Shown here: in pieces, positions 1,586 to 31,600 of the stretch
Numbering within the stretch: position 1 is the first letter of the stretch
Layout of the letters: the number at the start of each line of letters is the position of its first letter
Assembly: GCA_005799495.1 (NCBI GenBank)
Contig: SYGP01000017.1
Span: forward strand, 1-57,491
Reading direction: 5' to 3'
From: Planctomycetia bacterium
GTDB lineage: Bacteria > Planctomycetota > Phycisphaerae > Phycisphaerales > SM1A02
Length of the DNA stretch: 57,491 nt
Position numbers and translations under genes: made by a program
Notes under the pieces: model-generated
Database searches by the model: none
Told to the model about the DNA's origin: nothing
Seen by the model: the letters and a program-made list of their open reading frames with translations, nothing else

Positions 1586-1590
1586 CCCGC

Positions 1591-6200: not shown

Positions 6201-6647
6201 TCGCCCGGCTTCGCGGAGCATCGCGCGGGCTGGCCGATGCCGATCCACGATCTGCTGGTGAAGCACGGTGTGCAAGCGGTCTTCCACGGCCACGATCACC
6301 TGTATGTGCACAGCCAGCGCGACGGCGTGCAGTACCAATGCGTTCCCCAACCTGGCAACCTTTCGGGCAATACCCGCAGTGCGACACAGTACGGGTACGC
6401 AAGCGGCACTTTGTTCGGCAGTCCAGGACATGTTCGCGTGATTGTTGCGCCGCAGTCGGCCAGTGTCGAGTTTGTGCGGACAACAGTGGCTGGAGGTGAC
6501 GCGGGCGCAGGCGGTCAAGGCGAACAGCGCGGCGGCGGCCGTCGCGGCGGCGGCGGAGCAGGTCCAGCGGAACCCAACGACTCGGTGGTCGACCGCTATG
6601 AACTCGCACCGCGCGTTGGCGCACCCATCCGAAAGGAGTCCAAGTGA
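3234..6647 (+). CDS. YHYH / PEBP-like / calcineurin-phosphatase fusion protein, secreted
   Basis: This 1137-residue exported protein joins three modules. After a signal peptide ([17 protein letters not shown]) comes a YHYH region with DYHYH near residue 197 and SYHYH near 273. A (Gly-Gln-Gly)n repeat follows at about 382-423. Residues about 440-587 resemble the PEBP/YbhB (Raf kinase inhibitor-like) fold. After a second Gly-rich linker comes a fibronectin-like region of purple-acid-phosphatase type (about 640-735). Residues 740-1050 form a metallophosphoesterase with ADSHL, GDTF, GNHD and HGHDH metal motifs. The GTG start overlaps the sulfatase stop by four bases and has GGAG upstream. A phosphatase or phosphodiesterase activity is likely; the roles of the other modules are not known. 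A sequencing-made fusion is unlikely because the frame is continuous through both linkers. Confidence 0.85.
4377..4502 (+). repeat. 9-bp tandem repeat (GGTCAGGGY), 14 units
   Basis: GGTCAG recurs exactly every nine bases from 4377 to 4494, fourteen times, varying only at the last base of each unit (GGC/GGT) apart from the final unit. It encodes a Gly-Gln-Gly linker between the YHYH and PEBP-like modules. It is a coding minisatellite, not a CRISPR array. Confidence 0.95.
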
Positions 6648-12197: not shown

Positions 12198-12256
12198 CCT
12201 GAAGGACTGTAGGAAACAGGATTGAGCCGCGCCGCATTCAACCTATCTTGCTGTGC

Positions 12257-15399: not shown

Positions 15400-17037
15400 G
15401 TGATTCTGACATTGACTCAGTGCATTGGAGGACTGGGCATCTTCTTCGCGGGCATGTACCTGCTCACGGAGAATCTCCGTCTGTTGACGGGCCGCCGATT
15501 CCGCGAGGCGGTTGCGCGCTTCACGCGCTCGCGCCCCGCGGCAGTGGCGTGGGGCGTTTCGGCGGGGGCTGTGATGCAGAGCACTCCCGCGGTGACGCTG
15601 ATCGCCATCAGCATGCTCGGCAGCGGACTCATCGCGGTGGAGACGGGGCTCGCGATGGTGCTCGGCTGCAATGTCGGCACATCGCTGCTCGTGGTGGTTG
15701 CCTCGCTCGACATCAAGATCCTCGTCTTCGCCCTGTTGGGATTCGCCGGCTTGTCGTTCGCGAGCACGCGATTGGCGGCTGCGCGGACCGTGCCGCTCAT
15801 TGTGTTCGGCATTGGGCTTGTCTTCCTCGGACTCGACCTTCTGAAGGATGCGGTGGGACCGATCGCCCAGCAACCGTGGCTGCGCGAACTGCTCGCCTCG
15901 TCCGGGTCGTCGATGCCGCTGCTGTTCCTTGTCGGCATCGTGTTGTCCGTGCTGACGCAATCGGCCAACTCGATCATGCTGCTGGCCATCGCGCTTGCAG
16001 ATGCGGGGGCGCTCACCTTCAACCAAGCGGTGATCACGATCTACGGCGCCAATGTCGGCGACAGCATGCTGACCTGGGTGCTCTCCATGCCACTGCGCGG
16101 ACGCCAGCGGCAGGTGGCGATGTTCCAAGTGGCGTTCAACTCGATCGCTGCATGCGTGATGGTGCCGTTGTTGGTGGTGGAACTCGCGGGAGGCGTTCCG
16201 CTGGTGCTGGCGTTGGCGCGGCAGATCACCGTTGATCCGCCGTTGCAACTGGCGTGTCTCTCCGTGATGTTCAACATCGGCGGCGCGATCACGCTGTTTC
16301 CGTGCATTCCATGGGCGGCGCGAATACTCGCGCGTCGCTACCCGCCACCCACCGAGGAGGGCGATGCAGCGCCGCAGTTCCTCTATGCCGAAGCGGCCGC
16401 GGAGCCTGAGTCGGGACTGGCCCTTGCGGCATTGGAGCAGCGGAGACTCGTGTCGTTCATGCCTCGACTGTTGGCGATCGCGCGCGAGAAGCCTGCCGAT
16501 GCGCCCGCGCGGATTCGGCAAAGGCGTGATTCGATCCAGCAACTGAGCGCCGCGATCAACGAGTTCCTTGATCGGGTGGGTGAACGCTCGTTGCACGCCG
16601 GCGCGTACGAACAGCTCCATGCCGCGAGCAGCAAGGCGGAACTCATCGATGAGATCGCGGACACCATTGCCGAGTTGGCTTCCGCCGCAGTCGTGGCGGG
16701 GCGGCATGAGGCCACCCACAGGCTCAGCAGCAGCATCGTCGAGGGCATTGACGCGATGTTGCTCACTGCTGCGGAGGCGATGGGACCCGACGGTCGCGAA
16801 GAACTGGATGTTCTGCGGACCATGACCGGTGACCGCAGCACGCTCATGCGAAGAATTCGTGAAGACTATCTCGCGCGCGAGGCTGACCTCTCGGCAGGAG
16901 ACCGAAGGGATATTCTCTCCCTGACGATCGTCGCGGAGCGCGCATCGTGGCTGCTGCATCGGCTGGCGGCCGCGCTGCTTGAGGAGAGTCGAATCGAAGG
17001 TGGTGGTGGGTCTGCCCAGAAGACCCCGAATCTTTGA
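15400..17037 (+). CDS. Na/Pi cotransporter family protein with PhoU-like C-terminus
   Basis: This 545-residue membrane protein resembles sodium/phosphate cotransporters of the NptA/YjbB family. The N-terminal 310 residues hold the two inverted halves: GGLGIFFAGMYLLTENLR, then a QST motif in GAVMQSTPAVTLIA, and in the second half LTQSANSIMLL with GANVGDSM. The C-terminal 200 residues are helical and PhoU-like (QQLSAAINEFLDRVGERS and similar), as is common in this family. The start is GTG 15400. It follows the glycosidase gene after 47 bases and precedes the STAS gene by 37. The first QSS-type motif reads QST. The substrate is inferred from family only. Confidence 0.85.
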   Translation: MILTLTQCIGGLGIFFAGMYLLTENLRLLTGRRFREAVARFTRSRPAAVAWGVSAGAVMQSTPAVTLIAISMLGSGLIAVETGLAMVLGCNVGTSLLVVVASLDIKILVFALLGFAGLSFASTRLAAARTVPLIVFGIGLVFLGLDLLKDAVGPIAQQPWLRELLASSGSSMPLLFLVGIVLSVLTQSANSIMLLAIALADAGALTFNQAVITIYGANVGDSMLTWVLSMPLRGRQRQVAMFQVAFNSIAACVMVPLLVVELAGGVPLVLALARQITVDPPLQLACLSVMFNIGGAITLFPCIPWAARILARRYPPPTEEGDAAPQFLYAEAAAEPESGLALAALEQRRLVSFMPRLLAIAREKPADAPARIRQRRDSIQQLSAAINEFLDRVGERSLHAGAYEQLHAASSKAELIDEIADTIAELASAAVVAGRHEATHRLSSSIVEGIDAMLLTAAEAMGPDGREELDVLRTMTGDRSTLMRRIREDYLAREADLSAGDRRDILSLTIVAERASWLLHRLAAALLEESRIEGGGGSAQKTPNL

Positions 17038-17074
17038 AGTGGATCTCTGTTGGCGAATCAGGGAGTGCGCATCC

Positions 17075-17416
17075 ATGTTGAAGACAGAACGAACGAGTGA
17101 GAATGTGTTGGTCATTCGGATCGAGGGACGGCTCGATGGGGTATCCCGAGCCACCGTCGAGCCCGCCATCATCAGCGAACTGCAGTCGGTGCCGTGTGCG
17201 ATCGTTGATTTGTCCGGCGTTCCATTCATCGGAAGCGAAGGCCTTCGACTGCTCCTGATGCTTCGAAGGCGACCGGGCAGTGCGCGCATGCTTCTGTGCA
17301 ACATGCAAGGCCATGTTCGCGAAGTATTCGAGATCAGCGGGCTGCTGCCGCTCTTCGATGTCTTCGCGGCGCGGGACGAGGCAGAACACGCAGCGCGCTC
17401 GCACAGTCCGAGTTGA
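17075..17416 (+). CDS. STAS-domain anti-anti-sigma factor (RsbV/SpoIIAA-like)
   Basis: This 113-residue single-domain protein has the STAS fold pattern: NVLVIRIEGRLDGVS, AIVDLSGVPFIGSEGLRLLL, and a final VFEISGLLPLFDVF. The phosphorylatable serine position is kept (Ser54 in FIGSEGL). In partner switches such a protein binds an anti-sigma kinase when dephosphorylated by a PP2C phosphatase. No RsbW-type kinase is in the window, but a receiver-PP2C protein is encoded at 26258-27412, making it a candidate partner. The start is ATG 17075 with GGGAG nine bases upstream; an upstream in-frame start would run into the previous gene. Confidence 0.85.
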   Translation: MLKTERTSENVLVIRIEGRLDGVSRATVEPAIISELQSVPCAIVDLSGVPFIGSEGLRLLLMLRRRPGSARMLLCNMQGHVREVFEISGLLPLFDVFAARDEAEHAARSHSPS

Positions 17417-18125: not shown

Positions 18126-18488
18126 ATGGCAACAACATATGAAACGATCATGGCAAAGGTTCGTGATCTGACTCGAAAGGCGGAACAGGCCAAGCGCGCT
18201 GAGCAGAAGTCGCGCGCTCGCGCAATCCATCGCATCCGGCAGATCATGAAGGATCACAGGATTTCACTGGCGCATCTTGGCGGCACATCGATCGGCGGAT
18301 CGACCAGCGGGCCCAAGGCCGCCAAGCGCCGCCTGTCTCCCACGGATGGACGCCTGAAGGTCAAGCCGAAGTACCGCCATCCAAAGTCCAAGGAGACTTG
18401 GTCGGGGCGGGGCAAGACCCCGCGCTGGCTCGCCACCGAGATCAAGAACGGAAAGCGCGCGGAAGATTTCCTGATCAAGACCAAATAA
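18126..18488 (+). CDS. H-NS-like nucleoid-associated protein
   Basis: This 120-residue basic protein ends in a clear H-NS-type DNA-binding motif (KYRHPKSKETWSGRGKTPRWL region, residues about 80-102), close to the consensus of proteobacterial H-NS/StpA and related proteins. The N-terminal 45 residues are charged and helical (KVRDLTRKAEQAKRAEQKSR) and could mediate dimerisation. A Gly/Ser/Lys-rich linker lies between. Such proteins bind AT-rich DNA and silence acquired genes. H-NS is typically proteobacterial, so this copy may be a transferred gene. It lies 145 bases upstream of the chemosensory operon on the same strand. Confidence 0.8.
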   Translation: MATTYETIMAKVRDLTRKAEQAKRAEQKSRARAIHRIRQIMKDHRISLAHLGGTSIGGSTSGPKAAKRRLSPTDGRLKVKPKYRHPKSKETWSGRGKTPRWLATEIKNGKRAEDFLIKTK

Positions 18489-18632: not shown

Positions 18633-20747
18633 ATGAGTTCCAGTACCACGCCTCTTCGCCAACGACTGGTGTTTCGGATCACCTACCTCGGGATCCTGCC
18701 CGCGGTGCTGATCCTTGTGATCGTCGCCGGGTTCGGCATTTACAAGGCTTACACGGATTCCGCGGCGATGACCCGCAACAACTTGCGGCAGGTGGCGGAG
18801 CGGATCGCGGCAGAACTGGATGTGCAGAATCGGATGGCATGCGTGCTCGTCAGCACCATGGCGACGCAAAGGTCGGCCCGTTGGAATCCCGTGGTGGGGG
18901 ACCGCGAACAAACGCTTGCGGCGATGAAGTCCCTGGTGCGTGAAAACCCGTGGAGCATCGGGGTTTACTTTGACTATGAGGTCAACGCTGACGGGCTGGA
19001 TTCCCACTACGCCGCCCACCCGATGGATGACTGCCAACCAGCCAATTCTGGGCAGTTTGTGCCGTATGCGTTCTTGGACTGGAGGCGTGGAAACGCGCTG
19101 TCGGTCAAGCCAACCGTGGATCTGGAGACGAGCCTCTTCTTTGCTGGAATCCGCGAGATTTGGCGCTCGAGCGGGAAGACCCAGCCGCTCATCACGGAAC
19201 CGTACGTGTACGACGGGCAGGCCATGATTGAAACGGTGGCACCGATCATCGTCGATGGGAAGTTCGTCGGCATTGCCGGTTGTGATCGGGCTTTGCGGGA
19301 CATCGCCAAGGCTGTGCGTGAGGTCTGCGAAGCGAACGGGGTGGATGCGTTCGTGATCAGCAGCGGCAGCAAGGTGAAGGGACTTGAGAAACCGCGTGCG
19401 TTCGTCACCGCATCGACCGACCCGAAGGACGCTGCCGAGGATGCCGTTGAGGGGATGCTCCGAACGAGGACAGTCGACGGCACGCCCTTCGCAGCGCTCT
19501 TTTCGAACTTCATGTCCGTCGCGAGTGACGATGTCCAGGATTTCGATGCGGAAGACCCCACGAAGCAGTTGGACTGCATGTGGGCGCGAAAGTCGCTGCG
19601 CTTGCCGGATGGGAATCGATGGGACGTCATCGTTCGGGAGTTTCGGAGCGATGCGCTGGCTGCCGCGAACGAACGGCTCCTGTACCAGGGGTCTGCGGCG
19701 GCGCTGGGAGTGTGCGTGCTGGCAGCCCTGCTCATCATCCCAACTCGGTCGATCGGGAACCGAGTGGGGACTGCAACGGAGTCTGCGAAGCGGATGGCTG
19801 GTGGCGATCTCTCCGCCGGCGCCCCACCGGTGACTGGAAGTGATGAAGCGGCACTTCTCCTTACCGCCCTCGGATCGATGCACGCAGGCATGGAGTCGCT
19901 GATCACAAAGGTCAAGCAAGCGACCATCAACATCAATTCCACCGCCACGGAGTTGACGGCAACCGCGCGGCAGCAAGAGCGCGGCGCACACGGGCTGAGT
20001 GCAAGCACCACGCAGGTCGCGGCGGCCGCCAAGCAGATCGCTGCAACGAGCGGCGAACTGGGCAAGGCCATGGAACGCGTTGCCGCGAGCGCCGTGCGTG
20101 CTGCCGAACTCGCCCAGAGCGGTCGTTCCAGTCTCGATGGCATGGGCGCAACGATGCACCGACTCGATGAATCAACCGCGGGCATCGCAGCCCGACTGTC
20201 CGCCATCAGCGAGAAGGCCGCGACGATCAACAGCGTTGTCGTGACGATCACCAAGGTGGCGGACCAAACGAACCTGCTGAGCGTGAACGCTGCGATCGAG
20301 GCTGAGAAGGCAGGTGAGCATGGCGTCGGCTTCCTCGTTGTTGCGCGGGAGATTCGCCGTCTCGCCGATCAGACTGCTGCGGCCACCCTCGACATCGAGC
20401 AGACCGTTCGGCAGATGCAGGGCGCCGTGAGCACTGGCGTCATGGAAATGGACCGCTTTGCGGAACAGGTCCGCCGTGGTGTGGCGGATGTGGGCACGAT
20501 CGGCTCGCAGCTCGGACAGATCATCGAGCAGGTCGATGAGGGATCGTCGCAGTTCGCTGAGGTGAATGCTGGCATGCGCAACCAGAGCGAGGGCGCGCGG
20601 CAGATTTCCGAGGCCATGGGCGGACTCACGGGCACGGCTCGCGAAACACTGCTCGCGGCAGAGGAGTCATCGCGTGCGGCAGAACGCCTGCTCGAGGCAA
20701 TGGGCGAGCTGAAGACCGCCGTCGAGGCCTTCAAACTCCGCAAGTGA
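18633..20747 (+). CDS. wspA: WspA-like methyl-accepting chemotaxis protein
   Basis: This 704-residue membrane receptor starts the chemosensory operon. Transmembrane helix 1 is at about 17-40 (ITYLGILPAVLILVIVAGFG), a periplasmic Cache-type sensor spans about 45-345, and helix 2 is at 354-374. A HAMP region follows (KRMAGGDLSAGAPP). The signalling tip near residues 540-575 reads VADQTNLLSVNAAIEAEKAGE then EIRRLADQTAAATLDIE, very close to Pseudomonas WspA, as is VSTGVMEMDRFAEQVRRGV after it. I chose ATG 18633 because upstream in-frame sequence is not receptor-like. It should feed the CheA-REC kinase encoded 2.2 kb downstream. The stimulus is unknown; in Pseudomonas it is surface contact or membrane stress. 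Confidence 0.92.
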   Translation: MSSSTTPLRQRLVFRITYLGILPAVLILVIVAGFGIYKAYTDSAAMTRNNLRQVAERIAAELDVQNRMACVLVSTMATQRSARWNPVVGDREQTLAAMKSLVRENPWSIGVYFDYEVNADGLDSHYAAHPMDDCQPANSGQFVPYAFLDWRRGNALSVKPTVDLETSLFFAGIREIWRSSGKTQPLITEPYVYDGQAMIETVAPIIVDGKFVGIAGCDRALRDIAKAVREVCEANGVDAFVISSGSKVKGLEKPRAFVTASTDPKDAAEDAVEGMLRTRTVDGTPFAALFSNFMSVASDDVQDFDAEDPTKQLDCMWARKSLRLPDGNRWDVIVREFRSDALAAANERLLYQGSAAALGVCVLAALLIIPTRSIGNRVGTATESAKRMAGGDLSAGAPPVTGSDEAALLLTALGSMHAGMESLITKVKQATININSTATELTATARQQERGAHGLSASTTQVAAAAKQIAATSGELGKAMERVAASAVRAAELAQSGRSSLDGMGATMHRLDESTAGIAARLSAISEKAATINSVVVTITKVADQTNLLSVNAAIEAEKAGEHGVGFLVVAREIRRLADQTAAATLDIEQTVRQMQGAVSTGVMEMDRFAEQVRRGVADVGTIGSQLGQIIEQVDEGSSQFAEVNAGMRNQSEGARQISEAMGGLTGTARETLLAAEESSRAAERLLEAMGELKTAVEAFKLRK

Positions 20748-20754
20748 TCGCATC

Positions 20755-21207
20755 ATGCGCCACCTCTGCGTCATGATCGGTGGCTCACGATTCGCAGTGC
20801 CCGCTTCGGAGGTGCGCGAAGTCGGTCCCGCCGTCGCTGCTCGAACACTGCCGGGCGTGCCGATCTGGTGTCGAGGCTTCGCCTGCGCACGGGGTCAGTG
20901 GATGCCGCTCGTGCATGCAGCTGCGCTGCTTGGGATGCCGCTGACCCCGCCGACAACACTGTCGCGCACGCTGTTGTTGGATGACTCCAAAGATCCAACG
21001 CAGTCCGTCCTCATCGAGGTCGACGCAGTCGACGACCTTGTGCAACTCGACGGGACTGGCGTTCATCCGGGGCTCCAAGTCGCCGCGCACCCCTGGCTGG
21101 GGGCCTTGCATCCGTTTGGCGGTGGCAGTGTGCAGGTGTTGCTGCTTGGAGCGCTGCGGCAGCATCCGGAGTGGAGAGCACTCGCCCGAGAGGCTCCGGC
21201 GGCATGA
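20755..21207 (+). CDS. wspB: CheW-like adaptor (WspB position)
   Basis: This 150-residue cytoplasmic adaptor has a CheW-like fold: CVMIGGSRFAVPASEVREV at the start, LPGVPIWCRGFACARGQWMPLVHAAALLG in the middle, and VLIEVDAVDDLVQL later. It should couple the receptor to the CheA-REC kinase. It follows the receptor gene by seven bases and overlaps the CheR gene by four. The sequence is divergent from classical CheW. Position second in the operon matches WspB. Confidence 0.85.
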   Translation: MRHLCVMIGGSRFAVPASEVREVGPAVAARTLPGVPIWCRGFACARGQWMPLVHAAALLGMPLTPPTTLSRTLLLDDSKDPTQSVLIEVDAVDDLVQLDGTGVHPGLQVAAHPWLGALHPFGGGSVQVLLLGALRQHPEWRALAREAPAA

Positions 21208-22385
21208 CGGCGGTGCTTGCAGACCTGCTGAGTCAGCGTGCGGCATTCGATCCGCACCTGTGTTCAGGGAACGCCTTCGAGGTGACGTGCGAACAGCTTC
21301 GTCGGCGGCTCGGGGAAGTCTCTCTCGAGTCACTCGCCGATCGCGTTCGGCGCGACGAGGACGCACTGGAGCTGCTCGCGGCGCAGGTGGCCGTTCCCGA
21401 AACATGGATGTTCCGCTACCCGTCGAGCTTCGAGACGCTGCGCGATGCGTGTCTTGCGCGCGGACGCGGCATTCGCATGGCGAGTATCGGCTGCGCAACG
21501 GGGCAGGAACCGTTCTGCATGGCGGCGGCGGCACTCGCTGCGCTTGGCAGTGAGTCAGAGATTGTCGTCGATGCGCTCGACCGAAATCCCGAGGCACTTG
21601 CCATCGCTCGCGCCGTCGATTGGTCTGGCGCGCTCCGGCAGCGCGGCGAAATCCCAGCGTGGGCAGCACCATGGATATCGCACCACGCAGGCTCCGTGAC
21701 GGTGCACGAACGCACCCGTGCAGCGGTGCGATTTCACCGCGTGAAGCGCATCGACGATCTCGTCGCATTTCTCGCCGAGCGCTCGTTTGATGTGATCTTC
21801 TGCCGCAACATGCTCATGTACCTCGACGCCGCTGCACGGACTCGCGTGGTCCGAGCGATGGTGGACAGCGTTCCCGTCGGCGGTCTCCTGTTCCTTGGGC
21901 ATGCGGAGAACGCCATGCTCGCCGAGGGATTGGAACGCAGCGCTGCTCTCGATGCCTTCGCCTGGCAGCGGGCGGAACTGCCGCCGCTGGTTCGTGCGTC
22001 CTCGGTGGAGGCTTCCGGTACGGCATCGCGTGCGAAGACGGAGGGCGCCTGGGCCAGGCGTCCGCCGAACAACGCGCGTGGGCCAGAGGCTGCTGTGCAA
22101 ACACCTGTGAGCGAGGCGCGGTCGGTTCACTCGGAACAGGATCAAGCGATGCAACTTCGCACGCGAGTGAACGAGTTGTTCCTCCTTGCGGAGGAGCGTC
22201 TTGCCGCCGGTGACGAAGCGCAAGCCCAGCGCTTGCTTGGCGAAGTGGTGTTTCTTGCCCCGCAACATGACCTCGCGATGCTGGCGCTTGCCGATCTCCA
22301 CGAGCGGAGTGGCCGTGGGTCGGTGGCGGCGCAACTGCGAATGCGCGCCCAGCGAATCGCGCTGCGCGGGGGAGAGCCCCAATGA
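21204..22385 (+). CDS. wspC: CheR methyltransferase with TPR-like C-terminus (WspC-like)
   Basis: This 393-residue protein methylates receptor glutamates using S-adenosylmethionine. The N-terminal all-helical part is followed by the SAM motif MASIGCATGQEPFCMAA and the CheR motif IFCRNMLMYLD. A low-complexity linker (about 265-320) leads to a C-terminal TPR-like pair (LFLLAEERLAAGDEAQAQRLL, LAPQHDLAMLALADLHE), the architecture of WspC. The start is the ATG in the ATGA overlap with the CheW gene; the stop overlaps the next gene in the same way, so translation is coupled. Confidence 0.9.
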   Translation: MTAVLADLLSQRAAFDPHLCSGNAFEVTCEQLRRRLGEVSLESLADRVRRDEDALELLAAQVAVPETWMFRYPSSFETLRDACLARGRGIRMASIGCATGQEPFCMAAAALAALGSESEIVVDALDRNPEALAIARAVDWSGALRQRGEIPAWAAPWISHHAGSVTVHERTRAAVRFHRVKRIDDLVAFLAERSFDVIFCRNMLMYLDAAARTRVVRAMVDSVPVGGLLFLGHAENAMLAEGLERSAALDAFAWQRAELPPLVRASSVEASGTASRAKTEGAWARRPPNNARGPEAAVQTPVSEARSVHSEQDQAMQLRTRVNELFLLAEERLAAGDEAQAQRLLGEVVFLAPQHDLAMLALADLHERSGRGSVAAQLRMRAQRIALRGGEPQ

Positions 22386-22924
22386 TCGATCGCGCGCGAG
22401 TACCTACAGCGCTCGATCCGCAGGCGCTCCAAGACAACGCGGATGCGTTCGCGCGTCCCGTGCAATCGCAGCGCAAGCAGGATGTGCATGTCGTCCTTGC
22501 GCGGATCGGGTCGTCCTGGATCGCCTTTCCCGCAGCCCGAGTGCTGCGCGTCACGGCTGCGGCGGCCCCGCACCGCGTACCGCACCGCAAGCATCGGGCA
22601 CTTCGCGGACTCGCGAACATCGATGGACAGATCGCCGCAGTGATCGACTTCGCGTCGATCTGCGGATTTGAGTGGAACCCGGCAGGCGGCACGAAGGCAC
22701 GAATGGTGGTGCTGGGGGAGCGAAGCGCAGCGTGGGCGTTCGAAGTCGACGAAGTTCCTGGCACACTGGCTGTCAGTGCCGAAGATGTCGCGGTCGCCCC
22801 AGTGACAGTCTCCGCTCCACATGCCGGGTTCACATCGGGGCTCGTGCCAACCGAGCATGGCGCTGCGGGATTGGTGGATGTCGATGCGCTGCTCACCGCA
22901 TGCGAGGGAGTGGTGCGTTCATGA
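22382..22924 (+). CDS. wspD: second CheW-like adaptor (WspD position)
   Basis: This 180-residue adaptor is the second CheW-domain protein of the operon. Visible pattern: VVLARIGSSWIAFPAARVLRV, HRALRGLANIDGQIAAVIDFASICG and WAFEVDEVPGTLAVSAEDV. An N-terminal extension of about 30 residues precedes the domain. It overlaps both neighbours by four bases. Two CheW proteins flanking a CheR is the Wsp arrangement. It is somewhat shorter than Pseudomonas WspD. Confidence 0.85.
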   Translation: MIDRARVPTALDPQALQDNADAFARPVQSQRKQDVHVVLARIGSSWIAFPAARVLRVTAAAAPHRVPHRKHRALRGLANIDGQIAAVIDFASICGFEWNPAGGTKARMVVLGERSAAWAFEVDEVPGTLAVSAEDVAVAPVTVSAPHAGFTSGLVPTEHGAAGLVDVDALLTACEGVVRS

Positions 22925-25188
22925 GCCTCGGCGGCTTCAGCATGTTCGACCTGTACCGGCAGGAAGCAGAGCAGCATGGCCGCGCACTCAGCGATGGACT
23001 GGTGTCGCTCGAGAGCGCAAGTGATCCTTCGCTTGTGGAGCCGTTGATGCGCGCGGCGCACAGCGTGAAGGGAGCCGCGCGGATCGTGGGCTTCGATGCG
23101 CTGGTGAAACTCGCTCATGCGATGGAGGATTGCCTCGTTCGCATCCAGAAGGGAACGGAGGCAATCAGCGCCGGGCGAACGGATCAGTTGCTGCAAGGGG
23201 CGGATCTCATCGTGCAGAGCGCAGCGGTCCCTGAGTCGGATGTGGCATCGTGGTCGGCGCAGCAGGATGCAAAGATCGATTCGCTTGTGAAGCAGTTTGA
23301 GCAGGCCTCGGCGCCCGCTGCGGCAACCGCCACAGTGGTGCCGCCGCGCAGCACGGCTGCGCCAGAGCCCGCCGCGGTTGCGGCACCCTCCCAACCTGCG
23401 CCGACGCCGACGCCGCCGCCGCCACCGCCACCGACCGCGCCGCCGCCTGCGCCTGCGCCCGCGAGCGGCGATGTCAGCGTGATGGTCCGCACTCGCAGCC
23501 TCGACCGCCTCATGCGCCTCTCAAGCGAGAGCCTTGTGGAGTCGCGCCGCCTCGAAGGCGTGCAGCAGCGCCTGCGCGCGATTCGCCGCGGCGAACGCGT
23601 GCTCGAAGACCTGTTTGATCGTCGGCGCGCGGGCGCGGCGGTCGTCGATGACGACCTGCTCGCCGCCCATCAGCGCGTGCGCGCCGAGGTTGCACAGCTC
23701 GACTCCGACCTGCAGGCGCACTTGCGCCGCAGCGAAGAACTCGGCTCTGCGCTCCACCATGAGGCGATCCAGTCGCGCATGCGACCGTTTTCGGACGCGT
23801 GCGTGACAGTGCCGCGGACCGTGCGCGATCTTGCGCGGTCGCTCGGCAAGGAAGTGACCATCCGTCTCGGCGGACAGGCGGTCAGCGTCGACCGCGACAT
23901 CCTGCGGAAGCTGGAGGCGCCACTGACGCACCTTGTGCGCAACGCGATCGATCATGGAATCGAGTCTCCGTCGGATCGAGGCGCGACCGGCAAGTCGGTG
24001 CAGGCGACCGTCCAGGTCAGTGCGAGTCATCAGGCGGGCATGCTGCTCGTGGAAGTGGGCGATGATGGGCGGGGCATCGATCTGGACCGGCTGCGAGCGA
24101 AGATCCTTGAGAAGAAACTGTCGACAGCCGAACTCGTGGCACGCATGGGCGACAAGGAGCTGCTCGACTTCCTCTTCCTGCCGGGCTTCAGCACCGCGTC
24201 GGCACTCACGGATATCTCCGGGCGTGGTGTCGGGCTTGATGTCGTGCAGTCGACCGTCCACGAGGTTGGCGGAAGCGTCGAAGTGATCACCGCTCTGGGA
24301 AGGGGAACGACGTTTCGCATGCGCCTACCCGTCACGCTCAGCGTGGTGCGCGCTGCGATCGTGTCCATCGGCGGCGAGCCCTATGCGCTGCCGCTCGCCC
24401 GCATGGAGCGCATCGACAGGCTGGGCGAGAGCGACCTGACGCATGTCGAAGGGCGGTTGGTCGCACACATCCAGGAGGAACTGGTGGGGCTCGTTCGCGC
24501 GGATTCGCTGCTTGCGCTGCCAGAGCCGCCGCCATCGGGGTCGATCGCCGTCGTCAGCCTGCGTGTTCGGCAGAAGACGCTCGGACTGATCGTGGATGGG
24601 TTCCTCGGCGAAGAGGACATTGTGGTCAGCCCTCTCGATGAGCGCTTCGGCAGCGTTCCCCATGTGGCCGCGATGAGCGTTCGTCAGGATGGCGGGTTGG
24701 TGCTGATCCTCGATCTCGATGCGCTTGGCATCGATGCGGCGCGGCAATTGGACGAGGGATCGCTGCGTGGAGCCGCAGCGGGAAGTGAGCGCAACACCGC
24801 GCGGCGCCAGCGTGTGCTGGTGGTGGAAGATTCGCTGACTGTCCGTGAAGTCGAGCGACAGATGCTGGCGCGCGCGGGATACGACGTGGATGTCGCGGTG
24901 GACGGACTGGATGGTTGGAACGCCCTCCAGCGTTCCCGCTACGACCTTGTCCTGAGCGATGTCGACATGCCGCGAATGAATGGACTCGATCTCGTGCGTC
25001 GCATTCGGGCCGATCGCCGTCTGGCGCACCTGCCGATCGTGATGGTTTCCTACAAGGACCGCGACGAGGATCGCCGCGCCGGACTGGAGGCGGGTGCCAC
25101 GGCATACATGACGAAGGCTTCGTTCCATGATCGGACGCTGCTTGACACGGTGGCGGACCTGATCGCGTCGTCGGTGCAAGGCAACTGA
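22921..25188 (+). CDS. wspE: hybrid CheA histidine kinase with receiver domain (WspE-like)
   Basis: This 755-residue kinase is the centre of the pathway. An Hpt domain carries the phospho-acceptor His47 (RAAHSVKGAARIVGF). A Pro/Ala-rich linker with a run of prolines follows (about 125-180). The P3/P4 part shows the H-box region HEAIQSRMRPF, N-box THLVRNAIDHGIESP, G1 box GDDGRGIDL and a later GRGVGLDVV. A CheW-like P5 domain comes next (about 470-610). The C-terminal receiver has Asp680 in LSDVDMPRMNGLDLV. No separate CheY is present, so phosphate probably moves to this receiver, to the CheB-like protein and to the receiver-PP2C protein. The start overlaps the previous stop (ATGA). Confidence 0.95.
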   Translation: MSLGGFSMFDLYRQEAEQHGRALSDGLVSLESASDPSLVEPLMRAAHSVKGAARIVGFDALVKLAHAMEDCLVRIQKGTEAISAGRTDQLLQGADLIVQSAAVPESDVASWSAQQDAKIDSLVKQFEQASAPAAATATVVPPRSTAAPEPAAVAAPSQPAPTPTPPPPPPPTAPPPAPAPASGDVSVMVRTRSLDRLMRLSSESLVESRRLEGVQQRLRAIRRGERVLEDLFDRRRAGAAVVDDDLLAAHQRVRAEVAQLDSDLQAHLRRSEELGSALHHEAIQSRMRPFSDACVTVPRTVRDLARSLGKEVTIRLGGQAVSVDRDILRKLEAPLTHLVRNAIDHGIESPSDRGATGKSVQATVQVSASHQAGMLLVEVGDDGRGIDLDRLRAKILEKKLSTAELVARMGDKELLDFLFLPGFSTASALTDISGRGVGLDVVQSTVHEVGGSVEVITALGRGTTFRMRLPVTLSVVRAAIVSIGGEPYALPLARMERIDRLGESDLTHVEGRLVAHIQEELVGLVRADSLLALPEPPPSGSIAVVSLRVRQKTLGLIVDGFLGEEDIVVSPLDERFGSVPHVAAMSVRQDGGLVLILDLDALGIDAARQLDEGSLRGAAAGSERNTARRQRVLVVEDSLTVREVERQMLARAGYDVDVAVDGLDGWNALQRSRYDLVLSDVDMPRMNGLDLVRRIRADRRLAHLPIVMVSYKDRDEDRRAGLEAGATAYMTKASFHDRTLLDTVADLIASSVQGN

Positions 25189-26241
25189 GTGCCTCACCCG
25201 TACATTCCACCCGTGCGCATTGCCATCGTGAATGATCTGCGGCTCGCGGTCGAAGTCTTGCGGCGGGCGGTCGCGCAGATTCAAGGGGCGTCGGTCGCAT
25301 GGGTCGCGGAAGATGGGCAGCAGGCGGTGGACATGTGCGCGCGGGACACGCCGGATCTCCTGCTGATGGACATGCAGATGCCTGTGATGGACGGCGCTGT
25401 TGCCACGCGTCACATCATGAAGCGCTGTCCGTGCCCGATCATCGTGGTGACGGCATCGATCGATCACAACCTCGACCGTGTGTACGACGCGCTTGGCGCG
25501 GGCGCGCTTGATGTCACGCTGACGCCGACGATCCGACCTGATGGAACCCTCGATGGACTCGACGCGCTCGTCCGCAAGGTCGCCTATGTCCGCGCGCTCG
25601 ACGGGCACCGCCATGAGGTGACAGGTGCCCCGGCCCCCGCGCGCACCGCCAGCGGCCGAAGGATTGTCGCGATTGGATGCAGCACGGGCGGTCCTCCCGC
25701 GCTTGGCAAGCTGCTTGGCGCCTTGCCGCGCGCACTCGACTGGCCGATCGTGATCGTTCAACACATTGATCGGTGGTTCGCCCACGGTTTGGCGCAGTGG
25801 CTCACGTACATCTCAGGGCGCACGGTGGATGTGGCGCGCGAGGGTGAGCAAGCGGAGGCGGGGCATGTGTACCTCGCGTGCAGCGATGATCACCTCGTGC
25901 TGCGAGGCGGTCGCTTCTTCCACACTGCGGAACCGCGGGGACTTGTCCATCGCCCATCGGTGGATGTGTTGTTCGAAAGCCTTGCGCAAGCGCCGCCGGG
26001 CATCGCCGTGCTTCTCACCGGCATGGGGCGTGACGGTGCGGATGGACTGCGTGCGCTTCGTGCAGCTGGCTGGCACACGATTGCGCAGGATGAGGCGACA
26101 AGCGTGGTCTGGGGGATGCCTGGCGCGGCGGTCAAGTGCGGCGGAGCAGTGGAGGTGTTGCCGCTCGAGGCAATCCCCGACGCAATCGTCCGAAAGACCA
26201 CGGCGCATGCCTCGCGCGGCGACGGCGTGCAAACATCGTAA
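25189..26241 (+). CDS. wspF: CheB-like receptor methylesterase (WspF-like)
   Basis: This 350-residue response regulator removes receptor methyl groups. The receiver (about 9-130) has Asp61 in LLMDMQMPVMDG. The methylesterase domain has the catalytic triad Ser165 (IGCSTGGPP), His192 (VQHID) and Asp282 (TGMGRDGADG). The receiver begins RIAIVNDLRLAVEVLRRA, very like WspF. GTG 25189 follows the kinase stop directly and has AAGG seven bases upstream; GTG 25213 is an alternative that gives the usual WspF start. In Pseudomonas, loss of WspF locks the pathway on. Confidence 0.93.
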   Translation: MPHPYIPPVRIAIVNDLRLAVEVLRRAVAQIQGASVAWVAEDGQQAVDMCARDTPDLLLMDMQMPVMDGAVATRHIMKRCPCPIIVVTASIDHNLDRVYDALGAGALDVTLTPTIRPDGTLDGLDALVRKVAYVRALDGHRHEVTGAPAPARTASGRRIVAIGCSTGGPPALGKLLGALPRALDWPIVIVQHIDRWFAHGLAQWLTYISGRTVDVAREGEQAEAGHVYLACSDDHLVLRGGRFFHTAEPRGLVHRPSVDVLFESLAQAPPGIAVLLTGMGRDGADGLRALRAAGWHTIAQDEATSVVWGMPGAAVKCGGAVEVLPLEAIPDAIVRKTTAHASRGDGVQTS

Positions 26242-26257
26242 GAGCACCAGGAGCACC

Positions 26258-27412
26258 ATGACCCAAGTACTGAAGCCCAAGGACCTGCCCATCACCGTCT
26301 TGCTCATCGACGATCAGGCAATCATCGGCGAGGCAGTACGGCGCATATGCGCATCGCAACCCGACATCCACTTCCACTTCGTGAGCGATCCAACGCAGGC
26401 GATCGCGAAGGCTCGTGAACTGCAGCCGACAGTCATCTTGCAGGACCTCGTCATGCCGGGGGTCGATGGGCTTGATCTGGTCAGCCAGTTCCGCGCTGAA
26501 TCCGCCACGGCGCTCATCCCTCTCGTGGTGCTGAGTTCGAAGGAAGAAGGGAAGACCAAAGCAGAGGCTTTCGCACGCGGGGCAAATGACTACATGGTCA
26601 AGCTGCCGGATCCGCTCGAGATCATCGCACGGCTCCGCTATCACTCACGCGGCTACATCGCGCAGCTCCAGCGCAACGCGGCGTACGAGGTCCTCGCATC
26701 GGAACTCCACCAGGCTGCGGAGTATGTGCGCAGCCTTCTGCCCGCACCGATCGATGTGTCCGCGCTCCGAACGCGCTGGGTGTTCACGCCGTCGGCTTCC
26801 CTTGGTGGGGACTGTTTCGGCTATCGCATGCTGGACGACAGCCACTTCGCGTTCTGGCTGATCGATGTGTGTGGGCACGGCGTTGGACCCTCGCTGCTGT
26901 CGGTCAGTGTGCGGAACCTTCTGCAGGGGGCTGCTCCAAGCGTCGACCTGCGTCAGCCAAGCGCGGTGATGAGCATGCTGAATGCGTCGTTCCAGATGGC
27001 GACGCAGAACAACCTGTACTTCACTGGTTGGTACGGGGTCTTGCATGTTCCGACGCGGGCGCTTCGCTGGTCCGGCGCAGCGCATCCGTCTGTGCTCATC
27101 GCGGGAGCGAGCGGCATCCGCGAGTGCGAGTCACAGAACACCATCATCGGCATGGTCGACGGCATCGCCTTTGAGGAGACGCTGATTGACCTGGATCACG
27201 GCGACCGCCTCTACCTCTACAGCGACGGCATTGTCGAGATCGCCATGCCCGATGGCACCGTGTGGTCGCACAGCCAGTTCATGGAGTTCATGCGGAACGA
27301 TGCGCTGCTGACTGCATCGCCGATCGACCGAGTGATGCAGTACACCGAGCAGTTGCAGGGAAGTCCTGCGTATCAGGATGATGTGAGCATGGTGGAGATC
27401 GAAGTCCGCTGA
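26258..27412 (+). CDS. WspR-like receiver fused to PP2C/SpoIIE phosphatase: pathway output
   Basis: This 384-residue protein sits where wspR (receiver-GGDEF diguanylate cyclase) lies in Pseudomonas. Its receiver is WspR-like: IDDQAIIGEAVRR, phospho-acceptor Asp63 in PTVILQDLVMPGVDGLDLV, then GANDYMVKLPDPLEIIARLRYHSR. The output domain is not GGDEF: no GGDEF/GGEEF motif exists. From about residue 160 it is a PP2C/SpoIIE serine phosphatase with metal-site motifs SLGGDCFGY, DVCGHGVGPSLL, LYSDGIVE and QDDVSMV all intact. It should dephosphorylate a serine-phosphorylated partner, probably a STAS protein. ATG 26258 has CAGGAG upstream. Its last 106 bases recur 4.6 kb downstream. Receiver-PP2C outputs are known elsewhere, for example HsbR, but not as the standard Wsp output. 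Confidence 0.93.
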   Translation: MTQVLKPKDLPITVLLIDDQAIIGEAVRRICASQPDIHFHFVSDPTQAIAKARELQPTVILQDLVMPGVDGLDLVSQFRAESATALIPLVVLSSKEEGKTKAEAFARGANDYMVKLPDPLEIIARLRYHSRGYIAQLQRNAAYEVLASELHQAAEYVRSLLPAPIDVSALRTRWVFTPSASLGGDCFGYRMLDDSHFAFWLIDVCGHGVGPSLLSVSVRNLLQGAAPSVDLRQPSAVMSMLNASFQMATQNNLYFTGWYGVLHVPTRALRWSGAAHPSVLIAGASGIRECESQNTIIGMVDGIAFEETLIDLDHGDRLYLYSDGIVEIAMPDGTVWSHSQFMEFMRNDALLTASPIDRVMQYTEQLQGSPAYQDDVSMVEIEVR

Positions 27413-27466: not shown

Positions 27467-28627
27467 TTAGGGAGCTGGCGCGACTATCGCGTTGATGGCG
27501 GAGCCGTTCTCGAGTTCGCCCTGGTTGCTGACGATGATCAGCTCGTCGGTACGCAGTTCCCTCCGACTCTTCACGCCGTCCGTTTGCTCCGCCCATGCAA
27601 CTCTGGCAAGTGTTCCATCATCGATGTCGATCGTGATCGGGCAGAGCCGTGCCGTGCTTCCTTCGACGCGAAACAGAAAGGGCATGCCGCCTCGGCGCAC
27701 GATCGCACTGCTTGGCACGAGAGGGAGATTCTGGAAGCGTTGCACGGTGAGGCGCATCCGTCCATACATGCCGGGCAACAGGCGCGGTGTCGCTCCCGCG
27801 GCAAGCCCGCGCGGCACTTGCGGCAGAACGCCACCTTTCAGGTCGGCGTGTCCAGTCTGCGCCGATGTCCGCTCGAAGGCGGCGAATGATTCGGGCGTAC
27901 CGTTCCACAAGTCCACCTCGACGCGGCGCGTTCGGTCCGCCGCACTGAGCGCCGGCGCAATTCGCGTGAGTGTGCACTGAAAAGGTCCCGTCGACCCACC
28001 ATCGATCGTGATCTCCGCCGTCGTATCGAGAGTGATGAGCGCAGCCACGGTGTCGGGAACTCGCATTCCTGCGGTCAGAATGTCATCGCGAACGACTGTC
28101 ATGAGTGGCACGGCACTTGGGAGAAGGACTGCGCTTGTGACGAACGTGCCGGGATCGACTGCACGCGTTGCGACCACGCCTTGGAACGGTGCGCGAATCT
28201 CGCGCTGGAGTGGATCCGAGGGCTGCCCTGGAAGCGGCTGAATCCGCATGACTATCTCGCCAGCCTGCACGGGATGCCCCAGACTCTTTTGAACGAACTC
28301 AATCGTCCCCGTGATGGGCGCAAAGAGGTCGGCGCGGTAGTACGGTGCGATCTCGATCGGTTGTTGGACAGTCACGGAGAGTTCCGGTCCGACTCGAGGA
28401 TGCTCCGCTCGAACGCGGATCGGATCGGACGCGCTCGCTCGCGCGGCGCCCGAAGCCGTGGCAGGTGCAGCCGTCGGCTGGGTCTGCGTGGAATCCTGTG
28501 CGACCGCGTGCATCACGCAGCACAACGAGAGTGCACAGGCACCGAATCCCGGTGTGATGCGCATGCGGCTCAGGATCGCGTCGGTCGAGTGCGGAAAGCC
28601 ATGAGAGCGTGGGAGGGCGACGGGCAT
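27467..28627 (-). CDS. RND efflux periplasmic adaptor (membrane fusion protein)
   Basis: This 386-residue exported protein should link the RND pump to an outer-membrane channel. A signal peptide (PGFGACALSLCCVMHAVAQ) is followed by an Ala/Thr-rich stretch. The lipoyl-like part shows YYRADLFAPITGTIEFVQKSLGHPVQAGEIV and IRAPFQGVVATRAVDPGTFV. The later beta-barrel part has MRLTVQRFQNLPLVPSSAIVRRGGMPFLFRV. The alpha-hairpin is very short or absent between the two lipoyl halves. The start ATG overlaps the pump stop (ATGA). No TolC-type gene is nearby, so the channel must be encoded elsewhere. Confidence 0.88.
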   Translation of the reverse strand: MPVALPRSHGFPHSTDAILSRMRITPGFGACALSLCCVMHAVAQDSTQTQPTAAPATASGAARASASDPIRVRAEHPRVGPELSVTVQQPIEIAPYYRADLFAPITGTIEFVQKSLGHPVQAGEIVMRIQPLPGQPSDPLQREIRAPFQGVVATRAVDPGTFVTSAVLLPSAVPLMTVVRDDILTAGMRVPDTVAALITLDTTAEITIDGGSTGPFQCTLTRIAPALSAADRTRRVEVDLWNGTPESFAAFERTSAQTGHADLKGGVLPQVPRGLAAGATPRLLPGMYGRMRLTVQRFQNLPLVPSSAIVRRGGMPFLFRVEGSTARLCPITIDIDDGTLARVAWAEQTDGVKSRRELRTDELIIVSNQGELENGSAINAIVAPAP

Positions 28628-31600
28628 CAGTGCTGCTCCTTCGCTGACGGGGAGAGCGGCGCAGCGAGTTCCGCATCGAGGTCGATCAGGGGACGGAGTC
28701 GCCGCGCGAGCAGCGTGTACATGACTGGCACCAGGAAAAGCGTGAGCAGCGTCGAACTGATCATGCCGCCCACCACGGCTCTTGCGAGCGGGATGTTCGC
28801 CTCGTGACCGCGCCCGATGCCGATTGCCATCGGCGTCAATGCGAGCACCGTGGCGAGGAACGTCATGACGATTGGCTTGAAGCGCGTCGCAGCCGCCTCG
28901 CGGATCGCCGTGTTCGCATCGGCGCCTTCGAGGCGCCGAGAGTTGGCGAAGTCGACCAGCAGCACGCCGTTGTTGACCGCGACGCCGACAAGAAAGATCG
29001 TTCCCATGAGGCTTTGCACATTGAGGCGCGTGTCGGTCAAGAAGAGCATCCAGATCACACCGATGAATCCGAGTGGAACGGTGAGCATGATGACACCTGG
29101 ACCGATCCAACTCCGGAAGAGCGTCACCTGAAGCAGGTACACCAGCATCGCGGCGAGCCCCAGCCCGAGCGCCAACTGCGAGAACGAATCGTTCATGCGG
29201 TCGTACTCGCCTCGGAGGGTGACGCGCATGCCAGCTGGCAGGAGAGTGTCCTTCAGGATGGACTCGATGTCGCGAGCGACACCAGCCAGGTCGCGCTGTT
29301 CAACATTCACCAAAATGTTGGTCACTCGGCGGAGTCCACTGTGATTGACCTCGACGGCACCTTCGGTTCGGCGCGGAGTCACGACGCTGCCGAGGTTGAT
29401 GCTGGCGGCTTGTGCGGGTCCCTTCACCGGCAATGCGAGTACATCATCGAGCGTGCGATCCACATCCTCGGGAAACTGAACGCCGACGAAATACTGATTG
29501 CCCGAGCGCGCATCGACCCAGAAGTTGCGATTGACGCTGACGCTCGAGTTCATGGCAACGACGACCTGCTGGACGACATCTTCGACAGTCAACCCGAACT
29601 CCGCCGCCTTGACGCGATCGACATCGAGCACGAGGTATGGCGCATCAGATCGCTGCTGCACGCGGACGTCGGCGGTTCCCGCAATCGTCGCGATCTTCTC
29701 TCGCAGGATGCGAGCCACTTGCAGGGACTGCGCGGGAGTACCGCCTTCCATCTGCACATCAATCGGGCTCGATGCGCCGAGATTGAGCGCGGTCGAGACC
29801 ATTCCGCCCGTGTCGAAGTCAAAGCGCAGATCGGCAAATGACTCCTCCGAGGCGAGGCGGTGTCGCAGCTCCATAGCCCACTCTTGGGCGCTGCGCGAAC
29901 GCGCGGCGGTCAGTTGCAAGCGCAAGAGCGCATCCTGCTGACCGGCGTTCGTCGTGTAGGCCGCAGACCAGTCTGGGTTCAGCCCAAGTTCGCTGACGAT
30001 CATTTCGCGCTCGGAAGCGGGGATGACATCTTGGATGAACTCCTCCACCTCGACGATGCGCCGCTCGGTCGCATCCAGCCGCAGGTTGGAGGGGGCGCGC
30101 ACTCGAAGGACAATCTGACCGGCATCGACCTGCGGGAAGAACTCCCGTCCGATGCGCGGCACCAACAGCAGCGACCCTCCAAAGAGAAGGGCGATGCCGA
30201 AGATCACTGCGCCGCGGTTCACGAGCGCCCAAGAAAGCACGCGCGCGTATGCGCTTGCCAGGCGGTCGACGATGGCGCGTTGGAAGCGTGCGCTCGTGCG
30301 CGCAATGAACCCTGGCGCACGCCCGCGGATGGTGCCCTGGTGTGATCCACCGAGTGAGGAGCGATGATCGTCCGGCAGGAATGTGGCGCACATCATCGGC
30401 ACAAAGGTGCGGGACAGCAAGAACGAGGTGAACATCGCGAATCCGACCGCGAGCGTCAGGGGTCGAAACAGAAACCCGCCCATGCCCGGCAACAACGCAA
30501 GGGGAGCGAGCACGATGAAGGTGGTGCATGCTGCCACCAGCACGGGCACCATGACTTGCGCACAACCATCGATCGCCGCGCGGATTCGACTCTTGCCCAT
30601 GTGGTAATTGCGGTGGTTGTTCTCCAGTTCCACGATCGCTTCGTCGACCAACGGGCCGATGGCAAGCGCCATGCCGCCCAGTGTCATGGCATTGATGGTG
30701 TTCCCCGTTGCGAAGAGCCCCACGATGCAGCCAAGGATCGAAAGCGGCAGGCTGAGCGTTGCGATAAATGTCATGCGCCAATCGCCAAGGAACAGCAGGA
30801 TCATGATGGAGACGAGTGCAGCGCCAAGCAGTCCCTCGAAAACCAGTGAGGAAAGCGCGCCGCGAACGGCTGCGGTTTGGTCCATCACGAGGGAGAGTCG
30901 TGTGCCTTCGGGCAGGACCGATTCCATTTCAGGGATCTGCTCACGCACGCCATCCACGACTCGCAGACTGCTGCTGCCGCGCTGGCGATAGACCGGCACG
31001 AACACCTCGTTTCGTCCATCGATGCGAACGCGCGACGTCTGGATCGTTGCGGCATCCTGCGCATGCCCGATGTCGCGAACCAGGATGCTCGATGCAGGCC
31101 CGAGCGTGATCGGAATCTCGTTCAAGTCCTCGGGGCGTTCGACCATGGCATTGCTGTCCAGCAGCAACTGCTCATCACCGAAGTACGCCGTGCCTGGCGT
31201 CACCATCAGGTTGCCGCGCCGCACTGCCGACACGACATCCATCGGCACGAAGTTGCGTGCGTCCATTCGATTCGGATCGAGGTAGATCATCACCGCACGA
31301 TCCTGGCCGCCGACCACGACAGGCGCAATGCAACCAGGAACCGAACCGAGCATGTTTCGCACATTGATGCGCGCGAGATCCTTCTGGCGGGCGTCATCCA
31401 TCGCTCGATTCGTGACCGTCAGAATCCCAACCGGCAGGGTGCCTGTGGCGTCGAACGGCATCGCAACGGGGGGAAGCGTGTTCGGAGGCAGGTTCGGAAG
31501 CGCGCCGAGCGCAAGCGAATTGACGAGGGTCAGTGCCTCATTGGGATCGATGTCGTCTCGGAAGTGCACCTTCACGATGCTGACGCCGGGTACCGAGCGG

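Follow-up and report, generated by a model that had tools for sequence, protein, structure and literature searches.

A Wsp-type chemosensory operon of a planctomycete joins a WspR-type receiver to a PP2C phosphatase domain

Introduction

A seven-gene operon in a bacterium of the Planctomycetota carries a Wsp-type chemosensory core and ends in a response regulator whose WspR-type receiver (REC) is fused to a SpoIIE/PP2C phosphatase domain, in the place where Pseudomonas WspR carries the cyclic di-GMP (c-di-GMP)-forming GGDEF domain. It lies at positions 18633-27412 on the forward strand of the stretch analyzed here (the window), which spans 57,491 nucleotides and is an entire contig (C10; SYGP01000017.1) of a 2.36-Mb draft genome in 50 contigs, 97.8% complete. 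The operon is conserved across phyla. We consider it rather probable that it encodes an alternative cellular function (ACF) chemosensory system with Wsp gene order and a WspR-type receiver, in which a CheA-fed phosphatase, switched via a helix, would act on a STAS protein and thereby on transcription. The ACF class is reportedly due to Wuichet and Zhulin. Since Wsp is the textbook c-di-GMP pathway, a conserved sister set ending in a phosphatase ties chemoreceptor arrays to phosphatase-based switching.

Architecture of the operon

The open reading frame (ORF) list, Pfam and NCBIfam together place the genes in wsp order: methyl-accepting chemotaxis protein (MCP), CheW, CheR, CheW, CheA-REC, CheB and response regulator (Table 1). 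They are tightly packed, with a 7-bp gap between the MCP gene and the first cheW, 4-bp overlaps at the CheW/CheR, CheR/CheW and CheW/CheA junctions, a CheB GTG start at 0 bp from CheA-REC, and the REC-PP2C ATG 16 bp after CheB. The best matches of the first six genes and of the seventh gene's receiver follow, in collinear order, the Pseudomonas frederiksbergensis wsp operon (locus L116), with identities of 63% for the receiver, 49% for CheB, 44% for the receptor signalling half and 42% for CheA-REC, and of 29% for CheR (355 aligned positions), 28% for the CheW in the WspB position and 25% for that in the WspD position. An initial annotation, made from the sequence alone, had described seven such genes in this order and on this strand, and all seven are present. 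Among the parts that it called Wsp-like, the receptor signalling half, CheA-REC and CheB stand; the tetratricopeptide repeats (TPR) behind CheR are detected only weakly (TPR_19, E 8.8e-4, with 20.0 bits where the cut-off is 25), and CheR aligns with the WspC-position protein of L116 through residue 384 of 393. Its description of the last gene as a WspR-like receiver followed by a complete SpoIIE/PP2C domain is borne out, with 190 of 192 SpoIIE model positions covered. The presence of a Wsp-type core whose output joins a WspR-type receiver to a PP2C domain is confirmed.

Within the draft genome this operon is the only chemosensory system found. All three CheW-domain matches and the single MCP signalling-domain match fall inside it, which argues for one receptor and, by linkage, one output.

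Table 1. Features of the chemosensory operon and of a nearby STAS gene in the window
Feature	Coordinates	Strand	Evidence
Receptor (MCP, WspA position): weak PDC/Cache-type sensor and MCP signalling domain	18633..20747	+	Pfam MCPsignal 1.3e-29
CheW coupling protein (WspB position)	20755..21207	+	PF01584 8.8e-16
CheR methyltransferase, C-terminal TPR weakly detected (WspC position)	21204..22385	+	PF01739 1.4e-26; TPR_19 8.8e-4
CheW coupling protein (WspD position)	22382..22924	+	PF01584 4.7e-16
CheA histidine kinase with C-terminal receiver (WspE position)	22921..25188	+	Hpt, HATPase_c, CheW, Response_reg
CheB receiver-methylesterase, GTG start (WspF position)	25189..26241	+	PF01339 (CheB_methylest) 1.3e-57, Response_reg; NCBIfam PRK12555 over cut-off
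Output: WspR-type receiver fused to SpoIIE/PP2C phosphatase (WspR position)	26258..27412	+	Response_reg 7.1e-18, SpoIIE 1.6e-31
WspR-type receiver domain, about residues 12-118, acceptor Asp63	26291..26611	+	PDB matches 3bre, 3i5a; conserved residues
Receiver-to-phosphatase linker, continuous helix residues 119-159, short (38-residue) class	26612..26734	+	AlphaFold2 model, length measurement
PP2C/SpoIIE phosphatase domain with Asp185, Asp203, Asp323, Asp374	26750..27409	+	Pfam, 37-protein alignment, model, Foldseek
STAS (anti-anti-sigma type) gene, candidate substrate only	17075..17416	+	PF01740 8.2e-15; TIGR00377 over cut-off

Kinship of the receiver

Against PDB sequences, the output receiver matches WspR at 180.6 bits (3bre, E 1.8e-52) and 167.7 bits (3i5a, E 1.7e-48), and the next-best entry is far weaker (59.6 bits, E 3.9e-15). 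Over the aligned receiver it shares 63% identity with P. aeruginosa WspR, its nearest named relatives are Planctomycetota and Phycisphaerales bins, and Asp18, Asp19, Asp63 and Lys115 are invariant in all 37 aligned proteins.

A tree of 147 receivers, which rests on only 123 columns, has an unsettled bootstrap and draws on a sample gathered by likeness to WspR-type receivers, splits at a branch supported 97/80 into 100 rows that include WspR and 47 that do not. The WspR side, which holds both the window receiver and Pseudomonas WspR, comprises 65 PP2C, 16 GGDEF, 5 histidine kinase, 4 cyclase and 10 other rows. On the opposite side lie RssB (L252 and L257, so called by the NCBIfam RssB equivalog, over cut-off), the HsbR-like L250 (named from its REC-SpoIIE-HATPase_c_2 make-up rather than by a family model), 14 further receivers of PP2C proteins, the REC-GGDEF protein of the window genome (L005) with its two relatives, and all ten sampled CheA and CheB receivers. 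Where the initial annotation had asked whether the receiver might sit far from WspR, the tree groups the two. The receivers of two HD-GYP proteins (L050 and L241) also fall on the WspR side, on very long branches, and we did not count them as WspR-type by the tree.

Conservation across phyla

REC-PP2C matches at 1e-20 occur in at least 102 of 392 sampled genomes of the phylum, with at most four candidates scored per genome, and full-length relatives at 7.1e-99 or better in 19 of the 392 (the window genome included), below which a gap extends to 6.4e-66. At 17 of the 18 other phylum loci, L053 being the exception, CheB and CheA-REC precede the output on the same strand. Within the window's family, full-length REC-PP2C is found in 29 of 81 genomes; at 23 family loci CheA-REC is upstream in 20, and the other three reach contig ends. 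Two of these 23 (L236 and L242) have no CheB, CheR or MCP nearby. The phylum of the L103 genome gave full-length relatives at 1.9e-137 or better in 16 of 395 genomes (itself included; again at most four candidates scored in each), and at the 15 other loci the output follows CheB in 14, in 13 of these together with CheA-REC.

The named-genome scan with receiver alignment took the best 80 of at least 505 relatives, ranked by likeness to the window receiver and hence biased in its proportions, and returned 48 GGDEF outputs, 25 PP2C, three class III cyclases, three histidine kinases and one output that is cut off. Tabulating outputs in this way, as the initial annotation had proposed, reveals the same sensor core also with GGDEF, class III cyclase and histidine kinase outputs. 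Chemotaxis (che) genes are on the same strand at 18 of the 25 PP2C loci among these best 80. The named PP2C loci come from Planctomycetota, Acidobacteria (L094, L101), Elusimicrobia (L097), delta-proteobacterial lineages (L099, L103, L107, L109, L166) and Gammaproteobacteria (L092, L114, L152), nearly all of them metagenome bins for which single assignments may be wrong.

The phosphatase domain and its connecting helix

The phosphatase domain appears catalytically equipped. Asp185, Asp203 and the stretch S322-D323-G324 are invariant in all 37 aligned proteins and Asp374 is nearly so; we take Asp185, Asp203, Asp323 and Asp374 to be metal ligands, as in SpoIIE and RsbU. An AlphaFold2 model made with the 37 window and locus proteins (mean predicted local distance difference test score, pLDDT, of 94) consists of the receiver, a single helix over residues 119-159 and the PP2C domain. 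Foldseek returns P. aeruginosa RssB first for this model (3f7a, 5.3e-26), with E. coli RssB, WspR, SiaA, SpoIIE and Rv1364c in the next 22 matches, and at 0.001 the phosphatase domain matches only RssB (3es2, 3eq2) and SiaA (6k4e) among PDB sequences. In a tree of PP2C domains, which leaves out the long rows L002, L003, L250, L260 and L263, one clade supported 100/99 contains 39 Wsp-type and 6 other phosphatase domains, with RssB beyond its branch. The well-supported branches of this tree force four label changes, so that a single undisturbed origin of the PP2C fusion is unsupported.

The helix itself is strikingly quantized in length. Between the end of the receiver VKLP motif and the YV..L motif at the helix end, the linker is 38 (n=15) or 45 (n=38) residues in all 53 pattern-measurable proteins from 125 loci inspected, and 45 residues in 12 of 12 further proteins from 15 loci of the phylum of the L103 genome; all 65 linkers thus have one of two lengths exactly one heptad apart, with intermediate lengths absent. 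The two classes change at least five times on the PP2C tree (34 labelled rows). That only these two lengths occur fits a parallel coiled coil under phase constraint, and we regard the one-heptad spacing as a sign, read from sequence, of coiled-coil control. In addition, the residues directly after the receiver are common to many GGDEF, PP2C and kinase outputs and then diverge, as judged by eye from the printed tails, so the exchangeable plug probably includes the start of the helix. The linker lengths agree with the mechanism described for RsbU, in which coiled-coil linkers control PP2C dimers and which has been put forward as an exchangeable toolkit, in a paper whose main text mentions neither WspR nor chemosensory systems (PMC12143880).

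Exchange and doubling of outputs

How often have outputs changed hands? In a CheA tree of 59 rows, 27 planctomycete PP2C systems, the window's among them, form one clade (95/96), outside which lie the planctomycete systems L054 and L055 and the kinase-output L068. The PP2C label changes four times on this tree (mean of 16.8 when shuffled) and the GGDEF label four times (shuffled mean 11.9); such few changes indicate that outputs are largely inherited, yet have been exchanged more than once. For example, a system with GGDEF and one with cyclase output group as sisters (99/95) in cyanobacteria.

Two WspR-type outputs occur together at some loci. A REC-class III cyclase gene followed by a REC-PP2C gene stands in tandem at the operon end in L099, L304, L305 and L306, and in a Methylococcaceae metagenome-assembled genome (L114:105-11533) a wsp operon ending in REC-GGDEF is divergent from a WspR-type REC-PP2C and STAS pair. 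Within the window's family, a further WspR-like receiver (E 1e-25 or better) is present in 14 of the 29 genomes with REC-PP2C versus 2 of the 52 without, an association significant by genome (Fisher 3e-6) and by genus (2e-4) and uncorrected for relatedness. Six of seven loci with such extra receivers carry HD_5, of the HD-GYP type (L069-L072, L224, L226; L072 falls below the 1e-25 line), with L070 encoding a REC-GAF-HD_5 output, and the seventh (L225) has a NAD-binding domain. That last protein, at L225:5107-7239 on the reverse strand in genome G442, joins a WspR-like receiver to a FAD/NAD(P)-binding domain (NAD_binding_9), an output type unseen elsewhere here.

We lean slightly toward a broader view of these patterns, in which the Wsp core would be a general-purpose front end, and the WspR receiver with the start of the helix a plug for GGDEF, PP2C, class III cyclase, histidine kinase and HD-GYP outputs across phyla, sometimes two per operon. 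A coiled-coil phase kept in whole heptads would permit the swaps, the phosphatase branch would lead to partner switching rather than to a second messenger, and the c-di-GMP-producing Wsp pathway of Pseudomonas would be one branch among several.

The receptor and its signal

The sensor region of the window receptor has a weak PDC/Cache-type match (PF22673, 1.8e-4, below cut-off) that is stronger in four relatives (L227, L229, L064 and L221), two of them over cut-off. The Pseudomonas WspA homologue, on the other hand, senses through a four-helix bundle (4HB_MCP_1, 1.2e-21). Because the sensor domains differ in this way, the surface-sensing role that the initial annotation had attached to the operon is unsupported and the label should be dropped. 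In genomes G450 and G360, the gene before cheW encodes a REC-GAF-HD-GYP protein (L241:3665-5518, forward strand; L050:10525-12315, reverse strand), and there is no MCP in the operon stretches examined there.

Proposed mechanism and its substrate

Phosphotransfer, the dimer, the coiled coil, the STAS substrate and the transcriptional outcome are steps that we infer, and together they give the following picture. A ligand or stress perceived by the single receptor would set CheA autophosphorylation, with the receptor adapted by methylation through CheR and CheB and with the CheA-fused receiver draining or tuning phosphate. Phosphate would then pass from CheA to Asp63 of REC-PP2C, and the phosphorylated receiver would act via the single long helix, coiled-coil paired in a dimer, turning the PP2C domain on; this direction, on when phosphorylated, is suggested by analogy with HsbR and WspR. 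The activated phosphatase would dephosphorylate a STAS anti-anti-sigma protein at a serine, the gene for this protein lying elsewhere in the genome, and the end effect would most likely be transcriptional, by partner switching, and not through c-di-GMP.

Several related loci point to such a substrate. A neighbour search within 3 kb, using profiles from five STAS proteins (the window's excluded) and two RsbW-like proteins of the window genome, found STAS and/or RsbW-like genes near 6 of 61 PP2C outputs versus none of 45 GGDEF outputs (Fisher p 0.037, uncorrected for relatedness): STAS and kinase genes in L053 and L090, a kinase gene in L094, L101 and L054, and a STAS gene in L114. Pfam backs these calls with HATPase_c_2 in L053, L054, L090, L094 and L101 and STAS in L053, L090 and L114. 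In L090 (10579-11404) and L053 (3000-3778), the RsbW-like kinase and STAS genes come immediately after the WspR-type REC-PP2C gene. Moreover, two proteins whose phosphatase domains are related (49-50% identity to the L103 phosphatase) but which lack a WspR receiver have STAS and RsbW-like genes as neighbours, at L309:8312-10875 and L310:5349-7895. The window genome has eight STAS matches, three further PP2C proteins and four HATPase_c_2 matches, two of the last over cut-off, on contigs C13 and C37, and each of those two adjoining a STAS gene. The likeliest reading is a partner that acts in trans.

A number of observations weigh against this picture. STAS or RsbW-like genes adjoin the operon in none of 23 family loci and adjoin the output in none of 15 WspR-type REC-PP2C loci in the phylum of the L103 genome, and the neighbour comparison itself suffers from the uncorrected relatedness just noted. 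The STAS gene of the window is 1.2 kb upstream of the receptor gene, with an H-NS-like gene between, and it is not conserved with the operon: its best relative in the 81 family genomes scores 6.9e-13, and genomes G405 and G436, whose REC-PP2C proteins are 75-76% identical to the window's, have no window-type STAS gene at 1e-6. Seven of the 25 named REC-PP2C loci are without same-strand che genes in the DNA covered; three of these (L106, L114, L126) adjoin che genes on the opposite strand, and four (L109, L133, L148, L157) have none, two of them on contigs shorter than 5.5 kb. A second chemosensory system may have been missed in a draft of this fragmentation and completeness, and a REC-GGDEF gene that tends to co-occur with the operon, discussed below, may contribute c-di-GMP.

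The window STAS gene was also considered as the partner encoded with the operon and was rejected as such for its lack of conservation in the 81 family genomes; it is kept as a candidate only. It follows a Na/Pi cotransporter gene, the two spanning 15400-17416. At the four loci of its best relatives (L217-L220), neither a Na/Pi transporter nor che genes adjoin.

Alternative explanations

An unlikely alternative is that the protein with the PP2C fold serves chiefly as an adaptor under phosphorylation control, or acts on a phosphoprotein other than a STAS protein, as RssB does for sigma S turnover. The fold and PDB matches to RssB described above invite this reading, as do the adaptor role of Pseudomonas RssB, whose phosphatase domain is nevertheless active (PMC12143880), and the lack of a conserved STAS partner next to the operon among the family loci. 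Yet the catalytic-site Asp residues are invariant or nearly so in 37 proteins, RssB falls past the 100/99 branch of the PP2C tree, and the adjacent partner genes in related loci, where present, are STAS and RsbW-like.

Two further alternatives retain a second messenger. If the CheA kinase phosphorylated both REC-PP2C and a second receiver enzyme in trans, a phosphatase signal would be paired with a second-messenger signal, as the tandem cyclase and phosphatase genes, the divergent arrangement in L114 and the excess of extra WspR-like receivers in family genomes would suggest. We think this improbable for the window genome, where scoring of all 14 candidates gave no second WspR-like receiver at E 1e-25. 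It is very improbable, in our view, that the true output is the single REC-GGDEF protein of the genome (L005, contig C4), so that c-di-GMP would still be made and REC-PP2C would be an accessory. This protein is the only GGDEF match in the genome, and its relatives (those at E 8.3e-63 or better, which leaves aside four weaker matches) occur in 25 of the 29 family genomes with REC-PP2C versus 19 of the 52 without (p 1.8e-5), or 13 of 15 versus 13 of 30 by genus, a co-occurrence that leaves room for the c-di-GMP contribution mentioned above. Its receiver, however, lies off the WspR-type side of the tree, its gene is unlinked, on another contig, and the co-occurrence is imperfect, with 19 family genomes that have REC-GGDEF without REC-PP2C and four with the reverse. 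The initial annotation had named a GGDEF-type WspR elsewhere in the genome as the finding that would undo its reading; on the receiver tree and the presence and absence pattern, the orphan REC-GGDEF was rejected as the main output. Finally, that the genes form an ordinary flagellar chemotaxis cluster is scarcely credible on the evidence of the operon and its kin: the core che genes are present, but the operon lacks a single-domain CheY, its output is multidomain, its gene order is that of Wsp and its nearest kin are Wsp-type operons.

Other features of the window

Upstream of the operon and on the same strand, Pfam identifies the Na/Pi cotransporter gene, the STAS gene (Table 1) and the H-NS-like gene (18126-18488), and the next large ORF downstream (27467-29110) is on the opposite strand. 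Farther away, the window encodes a sulfatase (1582-3237), a 1137-residue ORF with YHYH, phosphatidylethanolamine-binding-like and metallophosphoesterase domains (3234-6647), a protein with an FGE-sulfatase domain, of the sulfatase-modifying type (8121-9335), and a PilM-like type IV pilus assembly protein (50969-53140). A 1034-residue ORF at 12248-15352 has a C-terminal repeat that we take to be dockerin-like in appearance.

Implications and comparison with known systems

Planctomycete Wsp genes have been reported by annotation (PMC6461901), and the operon described here implies that such annotated Wsp genes need not mean c-di-GMP signalling. The natural output exchanges form an unusually clean set. 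Since one sensor core occurs with several output enzymes, the notion that signalling parts are plug-and-play can be put to a direct test, and the chimeras that should function can be predicted from the one-heptad linker rule. Matched natural pairs with the same receiver and different enzymes could likewise test the proposal of Baral et al. (2025) that sensory domains common to phosphatases, diguanylate cyclases and kinases control these enzymes via one coiled-coil linker mechanism (PMC12143880).

The closest relative of the window system is Pseudomonas Wsp, with which it shares gene order, the receptor signalling half, CheA-REC, CheB and the WspR-type receiver with its following helix. It differs in that its output is a PP2C phosphatase rather than a GGDEF domain making c-di-GMP, its receptor has a weak PDC/Cache sensor in place of the four-helix bundle, and its CheR has a weak TPR. 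P. aeruginosa RssB (3f7a, 3eq2), which is presumably encoded outside any chemosensory operon, has the same REC-helix-PP2C architecture and the best fold match, whereas its receiver is on the other side of the tree and its phosphatase beyond the 100/99 branch. The RsbU and SpoIIE partner-switching phosphatases share the SpoIIE/PP2C domain and, at some related loci, STAS and RsbW-like neighbours; unlike them, the window protein would take its input from a CheA-fed receiver, as the operon suggests, and its locus has no conserved STAS and kinase pair. HsbR and HsbA resemble the proposed pathway in that a receiver controls a phosphatase domain directed at an anti-anti-sigma factor: HsbR~P dephosphorylates HsbA (PMC5085249). 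HsbR, however, receives its input from HptB and has kinase activity as well (PMC5085249), and the HsbR-like L250 receiver falls on the other side of our tree.

The initial annotation had confined precedent to separate REC-PP2C systems such as HsbR, and this proved too narrow, as RssB and, above all, earlier comparative work make clear. Munoz-Martinez et al. (2012), who also cite the ACF class, tabulated receivers paired with a family 2C Ser/Thr phosphatase, a cyclase, a kinase or GGDEF in CheR-TPR clusters, which means that this kind of system was already known (PMC3447774). Among the titles and abstract openings searched, which took in few subscription journals and no bioRxiv preprints, a Wsp-order operon with a PP2C output is undescribed as a system. 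The ACF CheR-TPR clusters and the window operon are alike in the kind of cluster, in having a multidomain response regulator as output and in joining a receiver to a family 2C phosphatase; to the extent that the text is available, that work describes neither kinship of the receiver with WspR nor an orthologous Wsp-order set, the linker quantum, tandem outputs or a substrate, and its main text leaves planctomycetes unmentioned (PMC3447774).

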